DNA of 64,000 nucleotides from Vulcanimicrobiota bacterium (GTDB lineage Bacteria; Vulcanimicrobiota; Vulcanimicrobiia; Vulcanimicrobiales; Vulcanimicrobiaceae), in NCBI GenBank assembly GCA_013036105.1, contig JAAXCX010000007.1, forward strand, positions 62,001 to 126,000, given 5' to 3'. The notes beneath the pieces were generated by a model, which saw only the letters and a list, made by a program, of their open reading frames with translations, was not told the DNA's origin and searched no databases. Positions within the stretch are counted from its first letter, which is position 1. Each line of letters begins with the position of its first letter. Below, piece by piece: positions 22,669 to 62,841 of this stretch. Both the position numbers and the translations under genes were made by a program.

Positions 22669-22714
22669 GTCCTTCGACGACGGGTTCGTATTGCGAACCC
22701 TACTCAGGATGACA
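22669..22714. repeat. Dispersed palindromic repeat, copy 2
   Basis: GTCCTTCGAC at the left and CTCAGGATGACA at the right flank a perfect 7-bp hairpin (22682-22688 with 22694-22700, loop of 5). The same flanks occur at about 4274, 31747 and 62794 around different inner sequence. It lies 16 bp from the end of hpnI. Confidence 0.75.
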
Positions 22715-30643: not shown

Positions 30644-31647
30644 GCACGCCGTTCGCGCAAAAAGCCGCTATCGCAAAATACGTCCTCGGCAAGAAGCTGA
30701 AAGGCGAGACGAAGTACGCTTTGGTAATGGAGCTTGAGCCGCTTTATCAGTGCAATCTTGCGTGCGCCGGCTGCGGAAAGATTCAGCATCCCGCGGAGAC
30801 GCTGCGCAAACGCTTGAGTCTCGAGGAGTGCTTAACGGCAATTGAAGAGTGCGGCGCGCCCGTGATTTCTATCGCCGGAGGCGAGCCGCTCGTGTACGAG
30901 CAGTTGCCGCAGCTGGTGGACGAGCTCGTGCGCCGCAAGAAAGTCGTCATCGTTTGCACGAACGCGTTGCTGCTCGAAAAGAAGATCGATCAATTCAAGC
31001 CTTCGCCGTACTTTACGTGGATGATTCACTTGGACGGCATGCGCGAGCGGCACGACGAAGTCGTCTGCCGCGAGGGAACATTCGACAAGGCCGTTGCGGC
31101 AATTAAAGTGGCGCAGGAGAAGGGCTTCCGCGTCGGCACCAATACGACGTTTTTCGATCCGGATAACGCCACGGCCATTCGCGCGGTGCTCGATTACCTC
31201 AACGACGAGCTCAAAGTCGACGCGATGCAGATTTCACCCGGTTATGCCTATGAGAAAGCGCCGGACCAGGAACATTTCCTTGGCGTCGACCGCACGCGCG
31301 CGATCTTCAAGGAAGCGTTCGCCGGCGGCAAACGAAAAAAGTGGCGTTTGAACCATAGCCCGCTGTATTTGGACTTTCTCGAAGGCAAATTCGACATGGA
31401 GTGCACACCCTGGGGCATTCCATCGTATTCGATCCTGGGCTGGCAGCGGCCGTGCTACTTAATGTCCGATGCGCCGTATGCGCAAACCTACAAAGAGTTG
31501 ATCGAAGAGACGGACTGGTCGCTCTACGGCCGCGGCAAGAATCCGAAGTGCGCGAATTGCATGGCGCACTGCGGCTACGAACCCACTGCCGTCGTACGGA
31601 CAACCGGATCGGTCAAGGAGAGCATTCGCGCGGCGCTTGCCCACTGA
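30640..31647 (+). CDS. hpnH: Radical SAM adenosylhopane synthase HpnH
   Basis: 335 residues. The iron-sulfur motif CNLACAGC is near residue 45 (CxxxCxxC), followed by the SAM-binding ISIAGGEPL. The C-terminal C-x2-C region KCANCMAHCGYEPTAV is typical of HpnH. The enzyme adds the 5'-deoxyadenosyl radical to hopene and so starts side-chain extension. ATG 30640 overlaps the shc TGA; the 3' end overlaps hpnA by 11 nt. Confidence 0.94.
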   Translation: MSTPFAQKAAIAKYVLGKKLKGETKYALVMELEPLYQCNLACAGCGKIQHPAETLRKRLSLEECLTAIEECGAPVISIAGGEPLVYEQLPQLVDELVRRKKVVIVCTNALLLEKKIDQFKPSPYFTWMIHLDGMRERHDEVVCREGTFDKAVAAIKVAQEKGFRVGTNTTFFDPDNATAIRAVLDYLNDELKVDAMQISPGYAYEKAPDQEHFLGVDRTRAIFKEAFAGGKRKKWRLNHSPLYLDFLEGKFDMECTPWGIPSYSILGWQRPCYLMSDAPYAQTYKELIEETDWSLYGRGKNPKCANCMAHCGYEPTAVVRTTGSVKESIRAALAH

Positions 31648-32656
31648 CCGCGTTTTCCTCACCGGTGCGAGCGGATTCGTCGGCGCGCACATCTTACGCG
31701 AACTCTTAGGCGCGGGTTACAGCGTGCGGGCACTCGTGCGTCCTTCGTCCTTCGACTACGCGCGCCGATCGCGCGCTGCTCAGGATGACAACTCCCTTCT
31801 CAATGACGCCAATGTAGAGTTCATTGAAGGCGACCTGCGGCGCGTTGGAGATTTTGCGCGCGCACTGGATGGCTGCCGGTATCTCGTGCACTGCGCGGCG
31901 CTGTACACGTTGGGGCCCGGTGAGCGGCGGGCTCTGCACGACGTCAACGTTCGCGGGACTGAAAGCTTGTTTGAAGCGGCCCGGATCGCCGGCATTGAGC
32001 GGGCGGTTCTCACGTCGAGTTCCGCGACGCTGGGAAGCTCGCGCGACGGAAAGCCGCGCACGGAAGACGATTACGCCCAAGGCGGCGGTTCAGGCTATCA
32101 CCACTCGAAAGTGGAGCAAGAACGCGCTGCATTTGCCGCGCGCGTTCCAGTTGTTGCCCTATTGCCGACCGCACCCGTCGGTCCGGGTGACGCCAAACCC
32201 ACTCCAACGGGCCAGCTCGTGCTGGAGTTCGCAAAAGGAAAGATCTTCGCGAAGCCGCCGCGCGGCGGCGGAATGAATCTGGTTCCGGTCGAGGATGTGG
32301 CGCGCGCCCACGTGGCCGCGCTGCAACGGGGGAGAACCGGCGAGCGCTACATTTTGGGTGGCGAGAATCTTACGCTCGACGAGGTGTGGACGTTGCTTGC
32401 GGCGGTGACGAAACGCAAAATGCCCGCATGGCGGGTGCCGGCTTGGTTCGCGCTCGCAATCGCGTACGGTGACGAGACGCGCGCGCGTTTGACGCGTACC
32501 CGGCCATTCGTACCGGTAGAAGGCGTAAATCTGTCGCGCGAGCTGATGTTCGCCGATAACGTCAAAGCCCGCGAGGAATTGAATTTTCAACCCGGCTCCA
32601 TTGCGGGCGCGCTCGAGCGCGCGGTCTACTGGTATCGCGCGCATGGCTACTGCTGA
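31637..32656 (+). CDS. hpnA: Hopanoid-associated sugar epimerase HpnA (SDR), with in-frame repeat insertion
   Basis: 339 residues of extended SDR fold from TTG 31637: LTGASGFVGAHI is the NAD-binding glycine motif, and the YHHSKVEQE segment near residue 155 gives the Tyr and Lys of the active site. The substrate in hopanoid synthesis is not settled. Between the VRP after the second strand and VEFIEGDLR there are about 12 extra residues (SFDYARRSRAAQDD) encoded by a dispersed palindromic repeat (31747-31790). The insertion keeps the frame and lies in a surface loop, so the enzyme may still work. Confidence 0.9.
   Translation: MPTDRVFLTGASGFVGAHILRELLGAGYSVRALVRPSSFDYARRSRAAQDDNSLLNDANVEFIEGDLRRVGDFARALDGCRYLVHCAALYTLGPGERRALHDVNVRGTESLFEAARIAGIERAVLTSSSATLGSSRDGKPRTEDDYAQGGGSGYHHSKVEQERAAFAARVPVVALLPTAPVGPGDAKPTPTGQLVLEFAKGKIFAKPPRGGGMNLVPVEDVARAHVAALQRGRTGERYILGGENLTLDEVWTLLAAVTKRKMPAWRVPAWFALAIAYGDETRARLTRTRPFVPVEGVNLSRELMFADNVKAREELNFQPGSIAGALERAVYWYRAHGYC
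31747..31790. repeat. Dispersed palindromic repeat, copy 3, inside hpnA
   Basis: GTCCTTCGAC on the left and CTCAGGATGACA on the right surround a 6-bp perfect hairpin (31759-31764 with 31770-31775, loop of 5). It is translated in frame as part of HpnA. A CGTCCTT tandem pair (31739-31745, 31746-31752) at the left border could be a trace of the insertion event. Confidence 0.8.
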
Positions 32657-40347: not shown

Positions 40348-42846
40348 GTGAGCGAGCGGTATTCACCGATGCTCGAGCAGTACTTTGGGATGAAAGCCCG
40401 TCATCCTGAAGCGATTTTGCTTTCGCGTGTCGGTGATTTTTACGAAGCCTATGGTGAGGACGCCGAACGGATCGCGCCCGCACTTTCGATTGCGCTCACC
40501 TCGAAAGAAGCCGGCAGCGGACAGCGCATCGCCATGGCCGGCGTTCCGCATCACGCGCTTTCACAATACTTAGCCCGGCTCGTGCAGCAGCGCTACATCG
40601 TCGCGCTTGCCGAGCAACTCGAAGTTCCGCAACCGAACAAGCTCGTGCGCCGCGACGTCGTGCGCATCGTCACGCCCGGCACGCTGATCGAAGATCAGCT
40701 GCTCGACGGCAAACAAAACAATTATCTGGCTGCGATTACCGCCGTGGATGACACCTACGGCCTCGCTTACGCCGACGTTTCAACCGGCTTGTGCGCGGCG
40801 ACTGCGCTTTCGGGCGAGGCAGCGTTCGAAGAATTGCTCGCCGAGATTGGGCGCATCGGTCCGGCGGAGATCGTGGCCGACGTGCCGCCGGGTTTGCGCG
40901 CGAATCTTTCGCTGACGCTGGAAAGCTCGGGCGTACGGGTCGCCGCGCCCGCGCTCTGCTCAGTCGAAACCCGCGACCGCCGATCGATCGAAGGCTTTTC
41001 GGTCGACGAAGCCCTCGCTATGCACCGTGCTCTCGACGCGGTCGCGGGTTTCGTTCGCCGTTCGGGCGTGGCTCCCTCAGGTTCGGCGCAAACGTCCGAA
41101 GCGAGCACGCTGCGGCCGCCCGATTTCTATCGCTACCGCACGTTTCTGGCGCTCGATCCGAATACGCGAAAAAATCTCGAATTGGTGAAAGCGCTGGGCG
41201 CGAATCCGAAAGCCACGCTGCAAGCGACGCTGGACAAATGCGCGACGTCGATGGGCTCGCGCCTGCTGGCGCGTTGGATTTTGGCTCCGCTCGTCGACAC
41301 GGAAGCGATCGGCAAGCGGCAAGACGCCGTGGCGGCGCTCATCGCCGAACACGTGCGCCGCGAATCCATGCAAGAGTTGCTGCGCGGCTGCTTCGATCTC
41401 GAGCGCATATCGCAGAAGGTGCGCTTTAAACGCGCGCTGCCGCGCGACTTGGCCTCGCTGCGCCGCACGCTGGAGAATTTGCGGCCGCTGCGCCAGGTGA
41501 CGCCGCCGGCATTGAAGCCCTATGCGGAGCGCATGGGCGACTTCGAAGATATGCTGGCCGATCTGAACATGACGCTCGTTGACGAGCCGCCCGCTCAGCT
41601 CATGGACGGCGGCGTGATTCGCGCAGCGGCGAACGCCGAGCTCGCCGAATGCGTGAGCCTGCGGACCGACGCGCGTGCGAAACTTTCAGAACTCGAAGAA
41701 CGCGAGCGCGAACGCACCGGCATCAAAACGCTGAAGGTGAAATACGTCAGCACTTTCGGCTATGCCATCGAAGTGGGCAAAGCGCATGCGGCCAGCGTGC
41801 CGGCCGATTACGTGCGCAAACAAACGCTGACCACAGGCGAGCGCTACACGACGCCGGAGCTCAAGGAACTCGAAATCGCCATTTCGACCGCGCAGTCGCG
41901 GCAGCTGCGACTTGAAGAGCAGCTCTTCGGCGAGCTCGTCGACCGCATCGCGGCGCGGATCGAAGATCTGCTCGCCGCCGGCGAGACGTTGGCGGAAATC
42001 GACGCGCTCGCCTCGCTCGCGCAGTGTGCTGCCGAACGTGGGTACGTGCGGCCGAAGTTCGTGGAAGAGAGCATCGTTGAGTTCAAAGACGGGCGCCATC
42101 CGGTGATGGAAGCGATTCTGCACGCCAACTTCGTGCCCAACGATCTGCACCTGCGCGAAGGCGAGCACCGCTTCGTCTTGCTGACCGGGCCCAACATGGG
42201 CGGCAAGTCTACGTATCTTCGGCAGGCCGCGCTGCTGACGATCATGGCGCAGATCGGGTCGTTCGTACCGGCGAAGTCCGCGCGTCTGGGCATCGTGGAC
42301 CGCATCTTCACGCGCATCGGCGCGGGCGACGATCTGGCGTCGGGACAATCGACGTTCTACATAGAAATGGCGGAGGCGGCGAATATTCTGCGCCGCTGCA
42401 CCCGCAGCAGTTTGCTGCTGATTGATGAAGTCGGGCGCGGCACCGGCACGATCGACGGCTTGTCGATCGCGCAAGCGATTTGTGAATTCTTGCTCGGCCT
42501 GGAAGATCAGGCGCCGTTGGTGCTGTTCGCCACGCACTTTCACGAACTGGTCGCGCTGGCCGAACACTGGAAGCTGGTTGCGAACTATCACGTCACGGCC
42601 GTTGAAAAAACCGGTCCCGACGGCGGCCCGGTCTTTTCGCATCGCGTGCTCGCCGGCAGCACTTCGCGTTCGTTCGGCATCGAAGTCGGTCGCATGGCCG
42701 GATTACCGGATGCGGTGGTCGAGCGCGCGCAAGAGATCGCCGACGCCCTCTCCGGAAAGGCTGACGTCGAAGAGCAAGTTCCGCTGCGCCGCCGCTTACC
42801 GAAGATTGTTCCGGCCGAGCGGCAATTGACGTTCCTCGACTCGTAG
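40348..42846 (+). CDS. mutS: DNA mismatch repair protein MutS
   Basis: About 832 residues from GTG 40348, which gives the usual opening (SPMLEQYFGMKARHPEAILLSRVGDFYE). Residues near 40 hold the mismatch-reading FYE motif (here GDFYEAY, with Phe and Glu present). The ATPase has GPNMGGKST near residue 614, then SFVPA, STFYIEMAE, DEVGRGT and ATHFHEL. It recognises mismatches and recruits MutL, encoded next, one base after the stop. An ATG at 40369 is possible but would shorten the N-terminus. Confidence 0.96.
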   Translation: MSERYSPMLEQYFGMKARHPEAILLSRVGDFYEAYGEDAERIAPALSIALTSKEAGSGQRIAMAGVPHHALSQYLARLVQQRYIVALAEQLEVPQPNKLVRRDVVRIVTPGTLIEDQLLDGKQNNYLAAITAVDDTYGLAYADVSTGLCAATALSGEAAFEELLAEIGRIGPAEIVADVPPGLRANLSLTLESSGVRVAAPALCSVETRDRRSIEGFSVDEALAMHRALDAVAGFVRRSGVAPSGSAQTSEASTLRPPDFYRYRTFLALDPNTRKNLELVKALGANPKATLQATLDKCATSMGSRLLARWILAPLVDTEAIGKRQDAVAALIAEHVRRESMQELLRGCFDLERISQKVRFKRALPRDLASLRRTLENLRPLRQVTPPALKPYAERMGDFEDMLADLNMTLVDEPPAQLMDGGVIRAAANAELAECVSLRTDARAKLSELEERERERTGIKTLKVKYVSTFGYAIEVGKAHAASVPADYVRKQTLTTGERYTTPELKELEIAISTAQSRQLRLEEQLFGELVDRIAARIEDLLAAGETLAEIDALASLAQCAAERGYVRPKFVEESIVEFKDGRHPVMEAILHANFVPNDLHLREGEHRFVLLTGPNMGGKSTYLRQAALLTIMAQIGSFVPAKSARLGIVDRIFTRIGAGDDLASGQSTFYIEMAEAANILRRCTRSSLLLIDEVGRGTGTIDGLSIAQAICEFLLGLEDQAPLVLFATHFHELVALAEHWKLVANYHVTAVEKTGPDGGPVFSHRVLAGSTSRSFGIEVGRMAGLPDAVVERAQEIADALSGKADVEEQVPLRRRLPKIVPAERQLTFLDS

Positions 42847-54051: not shown

Positions 54052-54085
54052 AAGGCCCGCACCGCCTCGGTGCGGGCCTTTTCTT
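54052..54085 (+). terminator. Rho-independent terminator
   Basis: 12-bp perfect stem 54052-54063 with 54069-54080, loop of 5, followed by TTCTTT. It ends the DedA-lipoprotein transcript just before uvrC. Confidence 0.88.
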
Positions 54086-54111: not shown

Positions 54112-56184
54112 ATGACCACTCCCGCGCCGCTCGCGCAAACCCTCGCGCAGATTCCCGATGCGCCCGGCATCTACATGATGCTGGACAAGAACGGCGACGT
54201 GCTCTACATCGGAAAAGCCGTCTCGCTGCGCAGCCGCGTGCGGTCGTATTTTCAAGAAAGCGCGGCGCATCACGTGCGCACGCAGGCGATGGTCGAGCGC
54301 GTGGTCGACGTGCGGACCATCGTCGTCACCAACGAAGTCGAAGCGCTTATTCTGGAAGCCAATCTGATCAAGCGTTACCAGCCGCCCTACAACGTGCGGC
54401 TGCGCGACGACAAACGCTATCCGTACCTGAAGGTCACCAACGAGCCGTTTCCGCGCGTGCTCTTTACGCGCGTGGTGAAAAACGACGGCGCGCGCTACTT
54501 TGGTCCATACACCAACGCGCACGGCCTACGCGAGCTGATCGATCTCGTGCGTCTGGTATTTCCGCTGCGCACGTGCCCCGAGCCGATTGACGGGCGGCGT
54601 CGGCGCCCGTGCCTGCAGTATCACATCAAGCGGTGCTTGGCGCCGTGTGTGGGCTACCAAAGCCAAGACGACTATGACGGCATGATCGAAGAAGTTGTGC
54701 TGTTTTTGGAAGGTAAGCAAGAGTCGCTGCTTTCGCGGTTGCAGCGCGACATGGTGACGTCGGCAGAGTCATATAATTTTGAGGCGGCGGCGCGCTTGCG
54801 CGACCGTATCGTTGCCGTGCGGCGCGTGACCGAGGCGCAGAAGGTCGTGTGGCGTTCGCGGATCGACATGGATTTGCTCGGACTCGCGCGTGCGCAGGGC
54901 CAAGCGTGCGTGCAAGTCTTCATGGTGCGTGCCGGCAAGCTGATTGCGCAGGAGCATTTCATTCTCGACGGCGTGGCCGATCAGCCGGATTCGGAGCTCT
55001 TTAGCGAGTTCCTGAAACAGTTTTACACTGCGCGGACTGCCGGCGCGCCCGAACCGGCCGGCGTTTCACCGTTGGCGTCGCTTCGAACGGCGCGCGGCGT
55101 GGAATCGCCGGTGCCTTTGCCGCGCGCGAATGCGAAGGCGGCGCGAACGGCCGCCAGTGCGATTCCCAAGGAAATCTTAGTACAGGCGCTGCCCGGCGAT
55201 ACGTCGATTATCGAAGCGTGGCTGACCGAATATAAAGGAACGCGGGTGCGCGTTCTGCTTCCGCGGCGCGGCGAGCGCTCTCGCTATCTCAAACTCGTGC
55301 AGAAGAACGCGGAGCAGAACCTCAAGGCGTTTCTGGCCCATCAGGAAGTGCAAGAGACGGCGCAGGCGCAATCGCTGACCGAACTCGCCGACGCGCTGGA
55401 GCTGCCCGAACCGCCGCACCGCATCGAGTGTTACGATATTTCGAACATCCAAGGCTCAAACGCGGTCAGCTCGATGGTCGTCTTCGTTGAAGGCCGCGCG
55501 AAGAAGAGCGACTACCGCAAATTCAAGATCCAGTACGACAAAGGGCCTAATGATTTTGCGATGATGCAAGAGACGCTGCGCCGCCGCTTGCGCTATTTAC
55601 GCACGAAGACCGATATTGACGTGGCGAATCGTGACGAGAGTGTCATGGTGAGCTTGTCGAACCACGGCCGGGCAGCGCCCGAAGGGGCGCATGACGAGGC
55701 CCGCACGAAGTTGCTCGATCAGCTCGCACGCAAAGAAAAATTCAACAAGAAGCCCGACCTCTTGCTGATCGACGGCGGAAAAGGGCAGCTGAGCGCCGTG
55801 ATGGAGGTGCTCGAAGAGATGGATATGACCGGTCTGTCGGTTGCGGGGCTCGCGAAAGAAAACGAATGGCTGTACGTTCCGGGTCAGTCCGAGCCCATCG
55901 TGCTTCCACCAAATTCCGCGGCGCTCCATTTAGTGATGCGGATTCGTGACGAGGCGCACCGTTTTGCGGTTACGTACCATCGCCAACGCCGCGGAAAAGA
56001 GATGACGCGTTCGGCGGTCGACGCGCTGGCAGGGGTCGGTCCGGTTCGAAAGAAGCGCTTGCTCACTGCCTTTGGGTCCGCGGCCGGCATTCGGCGCGCA
56101 AGCGTTGACGAGATCGCGGCGGTGAAGGGCATGACCCCGGCTTTGGCTTCGCGGGTGAAAGCCGCACTGGAGAAGTCGCCGTAA
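54112..56184 (+). CDS. uvrC: Excinuclease ABC subunit C, with in-frame palindromic insertion
   Basis: 690 residues from ATG 54112, about 80 longer than usual. In order: GIY-YIG nuclease (DAPGIYMMLDKNGDVLYIGKA), the Cys-rich CPEPIDGRRRRPCLQYHIKRCLAPC, a UVR motif, the RNase H-like nuclease (IECYDISNIQGSNAVSSMVVF; LLIDGGKGQL) and C-terminal helix-hairpin-helix pairs. A 60-bp palindromic element adds 20 residues at about 511-530 just before the second catalytic Asp region. Another unusual Pro/Ala-rich stretch of about 35 residues lies near 310-350. The catalytic residues look intact. It makes both cuts in nucleotide excision repair. Confidence 0.94.
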   Translation: MTTPAPLAQTLAQIPDAPGIYMMLDKNGDVLYIGKAVSLRSRVRSYFQESAAHHVRTQAMVERVVDVRTIVVTNEVEALILEANLIKRYQPPYNVRLRDDKRYPYLKVTNEPFPRVLFTRVVKNDGARYFGPYTNAHGLRELIDLVRLVFPLRTCPEPIDGRRRRPCLQYHIKRCLAPCVGYQSQDDYDGMIEEVVLFLEGKQESLLSRLQRDMVTSAESYNFEAAARLRDRIVAVRRVTEAQKVVWRSRIDMDLLGLARAQGQACVQVFMVRAGKLIAQEHFILDGVADQPDSELFSEFLKQFYTARTAGAPEPAGVSPLASLRTARGVESPVPLPRANAKAARTAASAIPKEILVQALPGDTSIIEAWLTEYKGTRVRVLLPRRGERSRYLKLVQKNAEQNLKAFLAHQEVQETAQAQSLTELADALELPEPPHRIECYDISNIQGSNAVSSMVVFVEGRAKKSDYRKFKIQYDKGPNDFAMMQETLRRRLRYLRTKTDIDVANRDESVMVSLSNHGRAAPEGAHDEARTKLLDQLARKEKFNKKPDLLLIDGGKGQLSAVMEVLEEMDMTGLSVAGLAKENEWLYVPGQSEPIVLPPNSAALHLVMRIRDEAHRFAVTYHRQRRGKEMTRSAVDALAGVGPVRKKRLLTAFGSAAGIRRASVDEIAAVKGMTPALASRVKAALEKSP
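55638..55697. repeat. 60-bp palindromic insertion within uvrC
   Basis: A 7-bp direct repeat (TGACGAG at 55632-55638 and 55692-55698) is spaced 60 bp, exactly 20 codons. Inside, GTCAT (55642-55646) and ATGAC (55691-55695) form inverted ends, with a GCGCCC/GGGCGC hairpin between. The peptide MVSLSNHG is typical of translated dispersed repeats seen in many bacterial genomes. Removing 60 bp restores a normal UvrC frame. Confidence 0.85.
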
Positions 56185-56628: not shown

Positions 56629-56983
56629 GGGGCTGAAATAGGTTCGACGGGAAGATCCGCGGTCAACGTAAGCAGGCGGAGTTGCGAGCACTCCTAAAAC
56701 GATCGCAAGCGTTTTACACGCAAATAACCAATACGCACTGGCTGCCTAATCTAGGTTAGCCACCGGACGCGAAGAGTCGGCCCGAACTACTTCGCACTCC
56801 GGTCACGAAATCGGGCTGGCACGATTGACCGACTCTAAGGTCGTGTAAGAAACAGAGTCTGCTGCGAACGGTAATCCACGCTTTGAGGAGTACGTTCGAG
56901 TAAGTAAAAATCGAAGCTGAGCCTGGAGAAAGCTTTGGTCCGGCTTTTCGGACTCGGGGGGCAGCACCCCGACAGCTCCACCA
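56629..56983 (+). ncRNA. ssrA: tmRNA
   Basis: The 5' end GGGGCTGAAATAGGTTCGACGGG is the tmRNA hallmark (longest literal part: first 20 bases), and its first 7 bases pair with CAGCTCC at the 3' end. CCA is encoded at 56981-56983. The T arm lies just upstream. The tag frame runs from GCA 56720 to TAA 56747-56749 and reads ANNQYALAA, ending in the usual ALAA degron. It rescues stalled ribosomes and marks the product for ClpXP-type proteases. Confidence 0.97.
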
Positions 56984-57380
56984 ATTTTCAGCAGGGGTAC
57001 AGAATTCAACTTTTTTGGCTTCGCGTTGGAGCCGTGCCCGTCCGCGAGCACCACCGCCTCATAGAGTCCGGAAATTAAAATCGTGCCGGGGTCACTCAGG
57101 CCGGCATAAAGCCACTCGCGTGCCAAATTGAAGGGGCATATCTACGTTCCGACGAGCGGGCACGGACAAGGTTGAGATACTCCGAAATGCAGCAAAAACA
57201 TGAGATACTCCGAAATGCGGCAAAACGCCGAGACAACGCCCGTGTACTGCAAGCCGACCATTGCCTGAAAGGCCAAGCGATGCCGCAGGGACCACGCCAA
57301 GAGAGGCAGCTAAGATCAGCGCGATGCTCACTGGCTCTGCACGATCCGTACCGGGCAAACCGAAACAATGTGCGTGCGGT
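56984..57380. other. Gene-free stretch downstream of ssrA
   Basis: About 400 bp with no credible gene on either strand. Short open frames overlap each other and the tmRNA, and none shows a family or ribosome binding site. It contains the 28-bp direct repeat described next. The 3' end of ssrA is a known integration site for phages and islands, so this may be a decayed insertion; no integrase remnant is recognisable. Confidence 0.5.
57173..57228. repeat. Two 28-bp direct repeats
   Basis: TGAGATACTCCGAAATGC begins at 57173 and again at 57201. Each copy goes on with AGCAAAA or GGCAAAA and the period is exactly 28 bp. Only two units are visible, too few for a CRISPR array and with no spacers. Confidence 0.75.
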
Positions 57381-62762: not shown

Positions 62763-62793
62763 ATAGATACGCTCTATTCGCACCGCCTCCGTT

Positions 62794-62841
62794 GTTATCC
62801 TGAGCGTAGCGACGCGGGGCGTCGCGAAGTCGAAGGGCGAC
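62794..62841. repeat. Dispersed palindromic repeat, copy 4 (reverse orientation)
   Basis: Read on the minus strand it has CCTTCGAC at the left and CTCAGGATAAC at the right, around a perfect 7-bp hairpin (62809-62815 with 62819-62825, loop of 3). It lies just upstream of the serine hydrolase gene. 62842-62943 shows nothing else. Confidence 0.78.

Follow-up and report, generated by a model that had tools for sequence, protein, structure and literature searches.

Is the palindromic stretch in the uvrC gene of an uncultured Candidatus Eremiobacterota species from soil ordinary protein-coding sequence, or has a mobile element entered the gene in frame, and if so, of which kind and how long ago? 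Palindromic elements that sit in frame within proteins have been a known phenomenon since their description in Rickettsia. The window analysed here is a stretch of 64,000 nucleotides from a draft MAG, designated G000, and the genomes used for comparison are the congeners G001, G002, G003, G005 and G006; its sisters are palsa and fen MAGs. Some chance of repeat misassembly attaches to such a draft; independent MAGs give the same pattern.

The uvrC Gene and Its Palindromic Element

The gene was identified as uvrC by the NCBIfam UvrC models and by the Pfam domains GIY-YIG, UVR, HhH and UvrC_RNaseH_dom (residues 427-620), all of which are complete. An alternative GTG start at 54070, upstream of the listed ATG, is likewise open. 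A preliminary description of the window had placed a palindromic unit inside this 690-codon frame without disruption of the frame, which is borne out by the ORF list and the NCBIfam assignment. The unit had been described as 60 bp between TGACGAG repeats; alignment with other copies in the genome gave an element of about 64 bp instead (Table 1), with the sequence TGTCATGGTGAGCTTGTCGAACCACGGCCGGGCAGCGCCCGAAGGGGCGCATGACGAGGCCCGC, coding approximately for residues 510-531 of UvrC, VMVSLSNHGRAAPEGAHDEAR. An inner GC hairpin had also been proposed, and two hairpins were identified, one of them with a GC stem.

The TGACGAG repeat exists on both sides as described. Its reading as a target-site duplication was not upheld, since near-identical elements elsewhere show the right repeat unit to be a part of the element: this region reads ...GGGGCGCATGACGAGGGG in locus L002, ...GCGCATGTCGAGGGG in L042 and ...GCGCATATCGAGGGG in L004, and the counterpart of the heptamer is GCATGACGAGGGG in L002 and a variant, GCATGTCGAGGGG or GCATATCGAGGGG, in others. 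The GTCAT/ATGAC ends do pair in the uvrC copy, but they are peculiar to this copy and are not termini of the family, in which the conserved feature is the stems flanking GAGC...TCGA. Taken alone, the uvrC copy did not fold significantly better than shuffled sequences (z of -1.1 for DNA and -0.8 for RNA), and the structural evidence for the element is the covariation between copies.

Directly downstream of uvrC, a tmRNA gene was identified by Rfam, as the only Rfam match near the element; ARAGORN reports none on that stretch. Some 190 bp beyond this gene lies a direct repeat, which is possibly related to an integration site.

Table 1. Features of the window (positions are those of the whole stretch).
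Feature	Position	Strand	Description
Intergenic element relative	22673..22714	-	TGTCATCCTGAGT head
Second intragenic copy	31751..31790	-	minus-strand element hairpin near the 5' end of the HpnA-like epimerase gene (31637-32656, +); antisense, encodes SSFDYARRSRAAQDD
uvrC	54112..56184	+	690 codons, ATG 54112 to stop 56184; from the ORF list
Hypervariable UvrC linker	55597..55746	+	between helix 481-516 and strand 550-554
Left TGACGAG	55632..55638	+	host uvrC sequence; right partner (55692-55698) inside the element consensus
Palindromic two-hairpin element in uvrC	55641..55704	+	about 64 bp; aligned with other genomic copies
Hairpin 1 of the uvrC element	55641..55665	+	TGTC head, AT, GGT-GAGC-TTG-TCGA-ACC
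Hairpin 2 of the uvrC element	55666..55701	+	GGCC-GGGC-(GC stem-loop)-ACGA-GGCC
tmRNA gene	56629..56983		Rfam match
Direct repeat	57173..57225		TGAGATACTCCGAAATGCRGCAAAA, 25 bp, spacing 28 bp
Intergenic element relative	62793..62834	+	TGTTATCCTGAGC head

A Dispersed Repeat Family

A search of the whole genome, which the preliminary description had called for, placed a 121-bp query at 46 places in G000. The head of the element, TGTCATSSTGAGC, occurs 75 times exactly in this 2.34-Mb genome (0 times when reversed as a control), far more often than chance would give, and the copy number was estimated at roughly a hundred; across seven genomes of the genus (G000 and six congeners), 62-154 exact heads were counted per genome. 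A copy consists of a head, which is TGTC in nearly all cases, followed by AT and a hairpin SST-GAGC-(TTG, CTG or a long stem-loop)-TCGA-ASS. Many copies contain a second hairpin, NNNN-GAGC-(loop)-TCGA-NNNN. The stem of hairpin 1 covaries as GGT/ACC, CCT/AGG and CGT/ACG, with 207 of 231 positions in Watson-Crick pairing compared to a shuffle maximum of 177, and the outer stem of hairpin 2 as CCCC/GGGG, GGCC/GGCC, GCCC/GGGC and CCCT/AGGG, with 135 of 176 positions paired compared to a maximum of 116. Four of the six reading frames are open in the head hairpin. The peptide said to recur was also found again, as VMVSLSNH in other proteins of G000 and of sister genomes.

Element hairpins form a tandem array with a period of 52 bp in L207 (3475-3740; ~41032-41271 of G000 contig 13), and head-to-tail repeats of 20-27 bp resembling this array occur at several loci of G000 and G006. 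The same core, of 24 bp, is present also in Alphaproteobacteria, on Phyllobacterium and Nitratireductor replicons, where it is preceded by CC and the head is consequently CCTC, and in five viral contigs. Among the papers listed by a literature search with the core sequence, the matches were incidental only.

Genomic Distribution and Orientation

Among 73 element loci in G000, 22 are intragenic, 32 lie in gaps between co-directional genes, 14 in convergent and 4 in divergent gaps, although about 91% of the DNA surveyed was called as coding. A similar distribution was found in G003 and G006; the ratios of convergent to divergent gaps for intergenic copies are 14:4 (G000), 21:5 and 43:15, a preference as in REPs. 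The intragenic counts are approximate, as the survey covered stretches around exact heads with a simple hexamer gene caller, and some 'intragenic' calls in G003 and G006 look like chance head matches. In-frame copies were identified in about 20 genes of G000 besides uvrC. The intragenic hosts include, with UvrC, the proteins Mfd, LigA, an Lhr-type helicase, a DNA polymerase IV-like (Y-family) protein and MazG, further IleRS, CarB, NuoG, RF3, two biotin carboxylases and HutI, as well as ComEA, WhiA, TrpE and an HpnA-like epimerase. In G003 (L269, 1005-4999), adjacent genes for the error-prone polymerase DnaE2 and a Y-family polymerase-like protein each contain an in-frame element.

A polar domain was also observed, in which nearly all heads lie on one strand whatever the direction of the genes. 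It is a region of syntenic core chromosome with positive GC skew and comprises L224-L233 on contig 8 of G006 and L205-L208, L222 and L223 on contig 13 of G000. The strand bias is 75:2 on G006 contig 8 (77 heads) and 19:0 on contig 7, and on G000 contig 13 all heads but one share a strand; outside the domain, the orientation is mixed. A replication-strand cause was rejected as a genome-wide explanation, local GC skew being no predictor of orientation in G000: 31 minus-strand and 17 plus-strand elements lie in positive skew, compared to 14 and 11, respectively, in negative skew. An integron-like cassette array was not favoured either, given the core genes of the region (guaA, purF, panB, argG).

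Protein Context of the Insert

The linker lies between an RNase H domain helix and the strand bearing Asp554. Its length varies from about 18 to 50 residues across Eremiobacterota, and it has no counterpart in the T. maritima UvrC structure (PDB 2nrt), where query residues 493 and 543 align to the adjacent residues 79 and 80. In an AlphaFold model based on 20 sequences (mean pLDDT 71), pLDDT falls below 50 at residues 507-523. The residues D442, D554 and H616, which are catalytic in the RNase H-like nuclease, show no variation in the UvrC alignment and are intact in the protein described here. Because the linker is absent from 2nrt and disordered in the model, and the catalytic residues are kept, the tolerance of the insert beside the nuclease, as postulated before, is plausible. 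The effect on DNA repair would most likely be close to neutral.

Sister Species and the Timing of the Insertion

With the linker left out, uvrC DNA gave the tree ((((G000,(G002,G005)),G006),G001),G003). G001, G005 and G006 share an element-free linker of 34 residues of the EGEDAKETTQ type (...EGEDAKETTQTKL... in G005), and the element is missing from siblings whose UvrC is 93-96% identical; in G002, a short, remnant-like VEGRVSKDEG is present. The topology of the tree indicates that the insertion in G000 is recent. The linker of G000 has 47 residues, so that the net growth compared to G005, G006 and G001 is 13 codons and not exactly 20 as had been supposed, which implies that a part of the old linker (~27 bp) was lost or overwritten.

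G003, the closest outgroup in the genus, contains a different copy of the element at the same residue, GVILSGAQNARPVEGRPSEAEG. Measured against random pairs of copies from different species, the similarity between the G000 and G003 copies ranks at the 62nd percentile, so that they are not evident orthologues. On these sequences, the simplest reading would be that one uvrC linker was occupied independently two times or more.

Copies throughout the genome and element-free sisters support the proposal that the element behaves like the Rickettsia palindromic elements, as a mobile palindrome inserted in frame. For the same two reasons, it is neither a sequence lacking other genomic copies nor a stretch that all relatives share as normal protein. 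The observation first made at this locus is thus partly confirmed, and its interpretation partly supported.

Reuse of Insertion Sites Across the Genus

By hand count, 9 of the ~20 host genes of G000 are also occupied in G003 and 11 in G006, each near the same residue, and the intragenic copies of the three species lie at most about 10 residues apart in orthologs. For these overlaps, hypergeometric p values of ~4e-14 (G003) and ~3e-22 (G006) result with a pool of 2,300 genes, and of 8e-5 and 1e-10 with a pool of 200 permissive genes; they are descriptive and not a test, the gene counts (20, 24 and 14) being hand-filtered and the species related. At the LigA, IleRS and MazG sites, five species carry an element or a remnant. 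In G005 and G002, the G000 host sites are variously filled, tandemly extended, decayed or empty: the CarB and Lhr sites are empty in G002, and remnants of 13 residues were found at the IleRS site in G005 and at the LigA site in G002.

At reused sites, the congeners carry other copies, frames or strands. Same-site copies are similar at HutI, AccC, Mfd and MazG (at least the 98th percentile), and others are unrelated or on the opposite strand; at MazG itself, G000 and G003 are occupied on opposite strands. Inheritance and replacement of copies both seem to be at work.

Origin of the Insert

That the 20 residues are normal protein with an accidental palindromic look has next to no probability. 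Such ordinary divergence would agree with the hypervariability of the linker across the phylum and with the weak folding z-score of the single copy, but it is refuted by the repeat family: near-identical DNA is present at other places of the genome, in large part between genes, the stems covary between copies, and siblings with almost the same UvrC are without the element. GTCAT/ATGAC and the two TGACGAG of the uvrC copy suggested a MITE, a non-autonomous DNA transposon bounded by terminal inverted repeats and a target-site duplication of 7 bp. This explanation is contradicted and very improbable, as these motifs are variable or internal element sequence and neither a family-wide terminal inverted repeat nor a duplication was seen among the copies inspected.

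It is less improbable, but still distinctly unlikely, that the element was domesticated, with insertions favoured by selection because they adjust DNA repair or expression. Five of the ~20 G000 hosts (UvrC, LigA, Mfd, the Y-family polymerase-like protein and the Lhr-type helicase) act on DNA, DnaE2 carries the element in G003, and the sites are kept throughout the genus; these hosts are at most suggestive of an enrichment in DNA-repair genes. Against selection stand the free change of insert sequence, frame and strand between species, the empty sites (CarB and Lhr in G002) and the decayed ones, and the metabolic genes among the hosts. A single insertion in the genus ancestor, followed by decay or divergence in place and never by reuse of the site, would account for the occupation of LigA, IleRS and MazG in nearly all species and for the clear similarity of same-site copies at HutI, AccC, Mfd and MazG. 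It remains an unlikely explanation in view of the one element-free uvrC linker shared by G005, G006 and G001, the unrelated copies of G000 and G003 and the opposite strands at MazG.

We consider it highly probable that a dispersed REP-type element inserted recently, in frame and near-neutrally into uvrC, and that linkers are reoccupied across the genus. The element would be a dimer with a TGTC head, composed of two imperfect hairpins which each have the form stem-GAGC-loop-TCGA-stem, presumably mobile in trans. It would have entered a surface linker of the C-terminal RNase H-like endonuclease of UvrC after the split from the nearest sequenced relatives. Since its frames are mostly open and the linker lacks structure and varies, the insertion would lengthen a loop and probably be almost without effect. 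The same process would have acted in the ~20 other genes, and the same linkers would be reoccupied because few protein sites tolerate inserts; perhaps a new copy is added to an old one or takes its place, and replacement at resident sites would lead to repeated occupation. Against this account, the uvrC insertion was not clean, with ~27 bp of ancestral linker lost, the single copy folds no better than shuffles, neither movement nor excision at the present time was seen, and the mover was not found: a Y1_Tnp gene (PF01797; Y1/RAYT) is absent from G000 and six congeners, in a search which found it in 5 of 14 named control genomes.

More tentatively, and rather doubtfully, a transposase-less REP-like element might renew itself at fixed intragenic linkers by a RAYT-free single-stranded DNA or recombination process, beside or in place of resident copies, so that orthologs carry interchangeable, unrelated inserts. 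If this were true, the one-sided heads on G006 contig 8 (75 of 77) would be a trace of replication coupling. A genus in which ~15 orthologous linkers, that of uvrC included, are empty, filled, refilled or decayed offers a natural series for testing by what means palindromic inserts move and whether they are in repair genes by chance, and the insertion sites are a natural map of insertion-tolerant positions in essential proteins.

Comparison to Known Systems

A MITE is distinguished from the element by its terminal inverted repeats and target-site duplication, of which the apparent examples here are element-internal or particular to the uvrC copy. With REPINs, the GTAG REPs associated with RAYT, the element shares the hairpin dimers, the dispersed location and the vertically persisting populations; however, its head is TGTC and not GTAG, and a RAYT gene (Y1, HUH) was not found in the seven genomes of the genus.

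The closest resemblance of the element is to the CGTC/TGTC-tagged REP superfamily, two defining features of which it does not show. According to the consulted parts of Di Nocera et al. 2013 (PMC3733652), TGTC is a variant of the CGTC tag, CGTC REPs have no dedicated transposase, and intragenic REPs occur in uvr genes. Correspondingly, the unpaired tag at one end of superfamily members (CGTC, or TGTC/CCTC) has its counterpart in the heads, which are TGTC here and CCTC in Phyllobacterium and Nitratireductor, and Y1_Tnp is absent from G000 and six congeners. The stem start at AT, the dispersed and mostly intergenic copies, the preference for unidirectional and convergent gaps and the intragenic copies, those in uvr genes included, are further points of likeness. 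In contrast, the superfamily stem of 8-9 continuous bp from A-T pairs with a loop of 4-5 nt is replaced by 3-5 pairs around a GAGC/TCGA mismatch with a loop of 3 nt (TTG/CTG) or a long stem-loop, and in place of an unpaired CCA-type tail, the copies run from ACC-AC or AGG-AC into hairpin 2. No mention of Eremiobacterota as hosts of CGTC REPs was found in the same parts of PMC3733652.

The likeness to RPE-1, RPE-4 and RPE-6 consists in palindromes placed in frame in functional proteins, as in ~20 genes of G000; the host is unrelated, and the resemblance described here is one of behaviour. RPE-4 and RPE-6 were assigned to the CGTC REP superfamily, and a tuning of repair or expression by REPs in repair genes was speculated on, in the portions of PMC3733652 consulted. 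For the reuse of one site by different copies in congeners, no description was found there except one Xanthomonas case, in which different REPs occupy about the same recB site. In-frame insertion of REPs and RPEs was already known, and, as far as the partly consulted literature goes, it is the host lineage and the degree of site reuse that look new.
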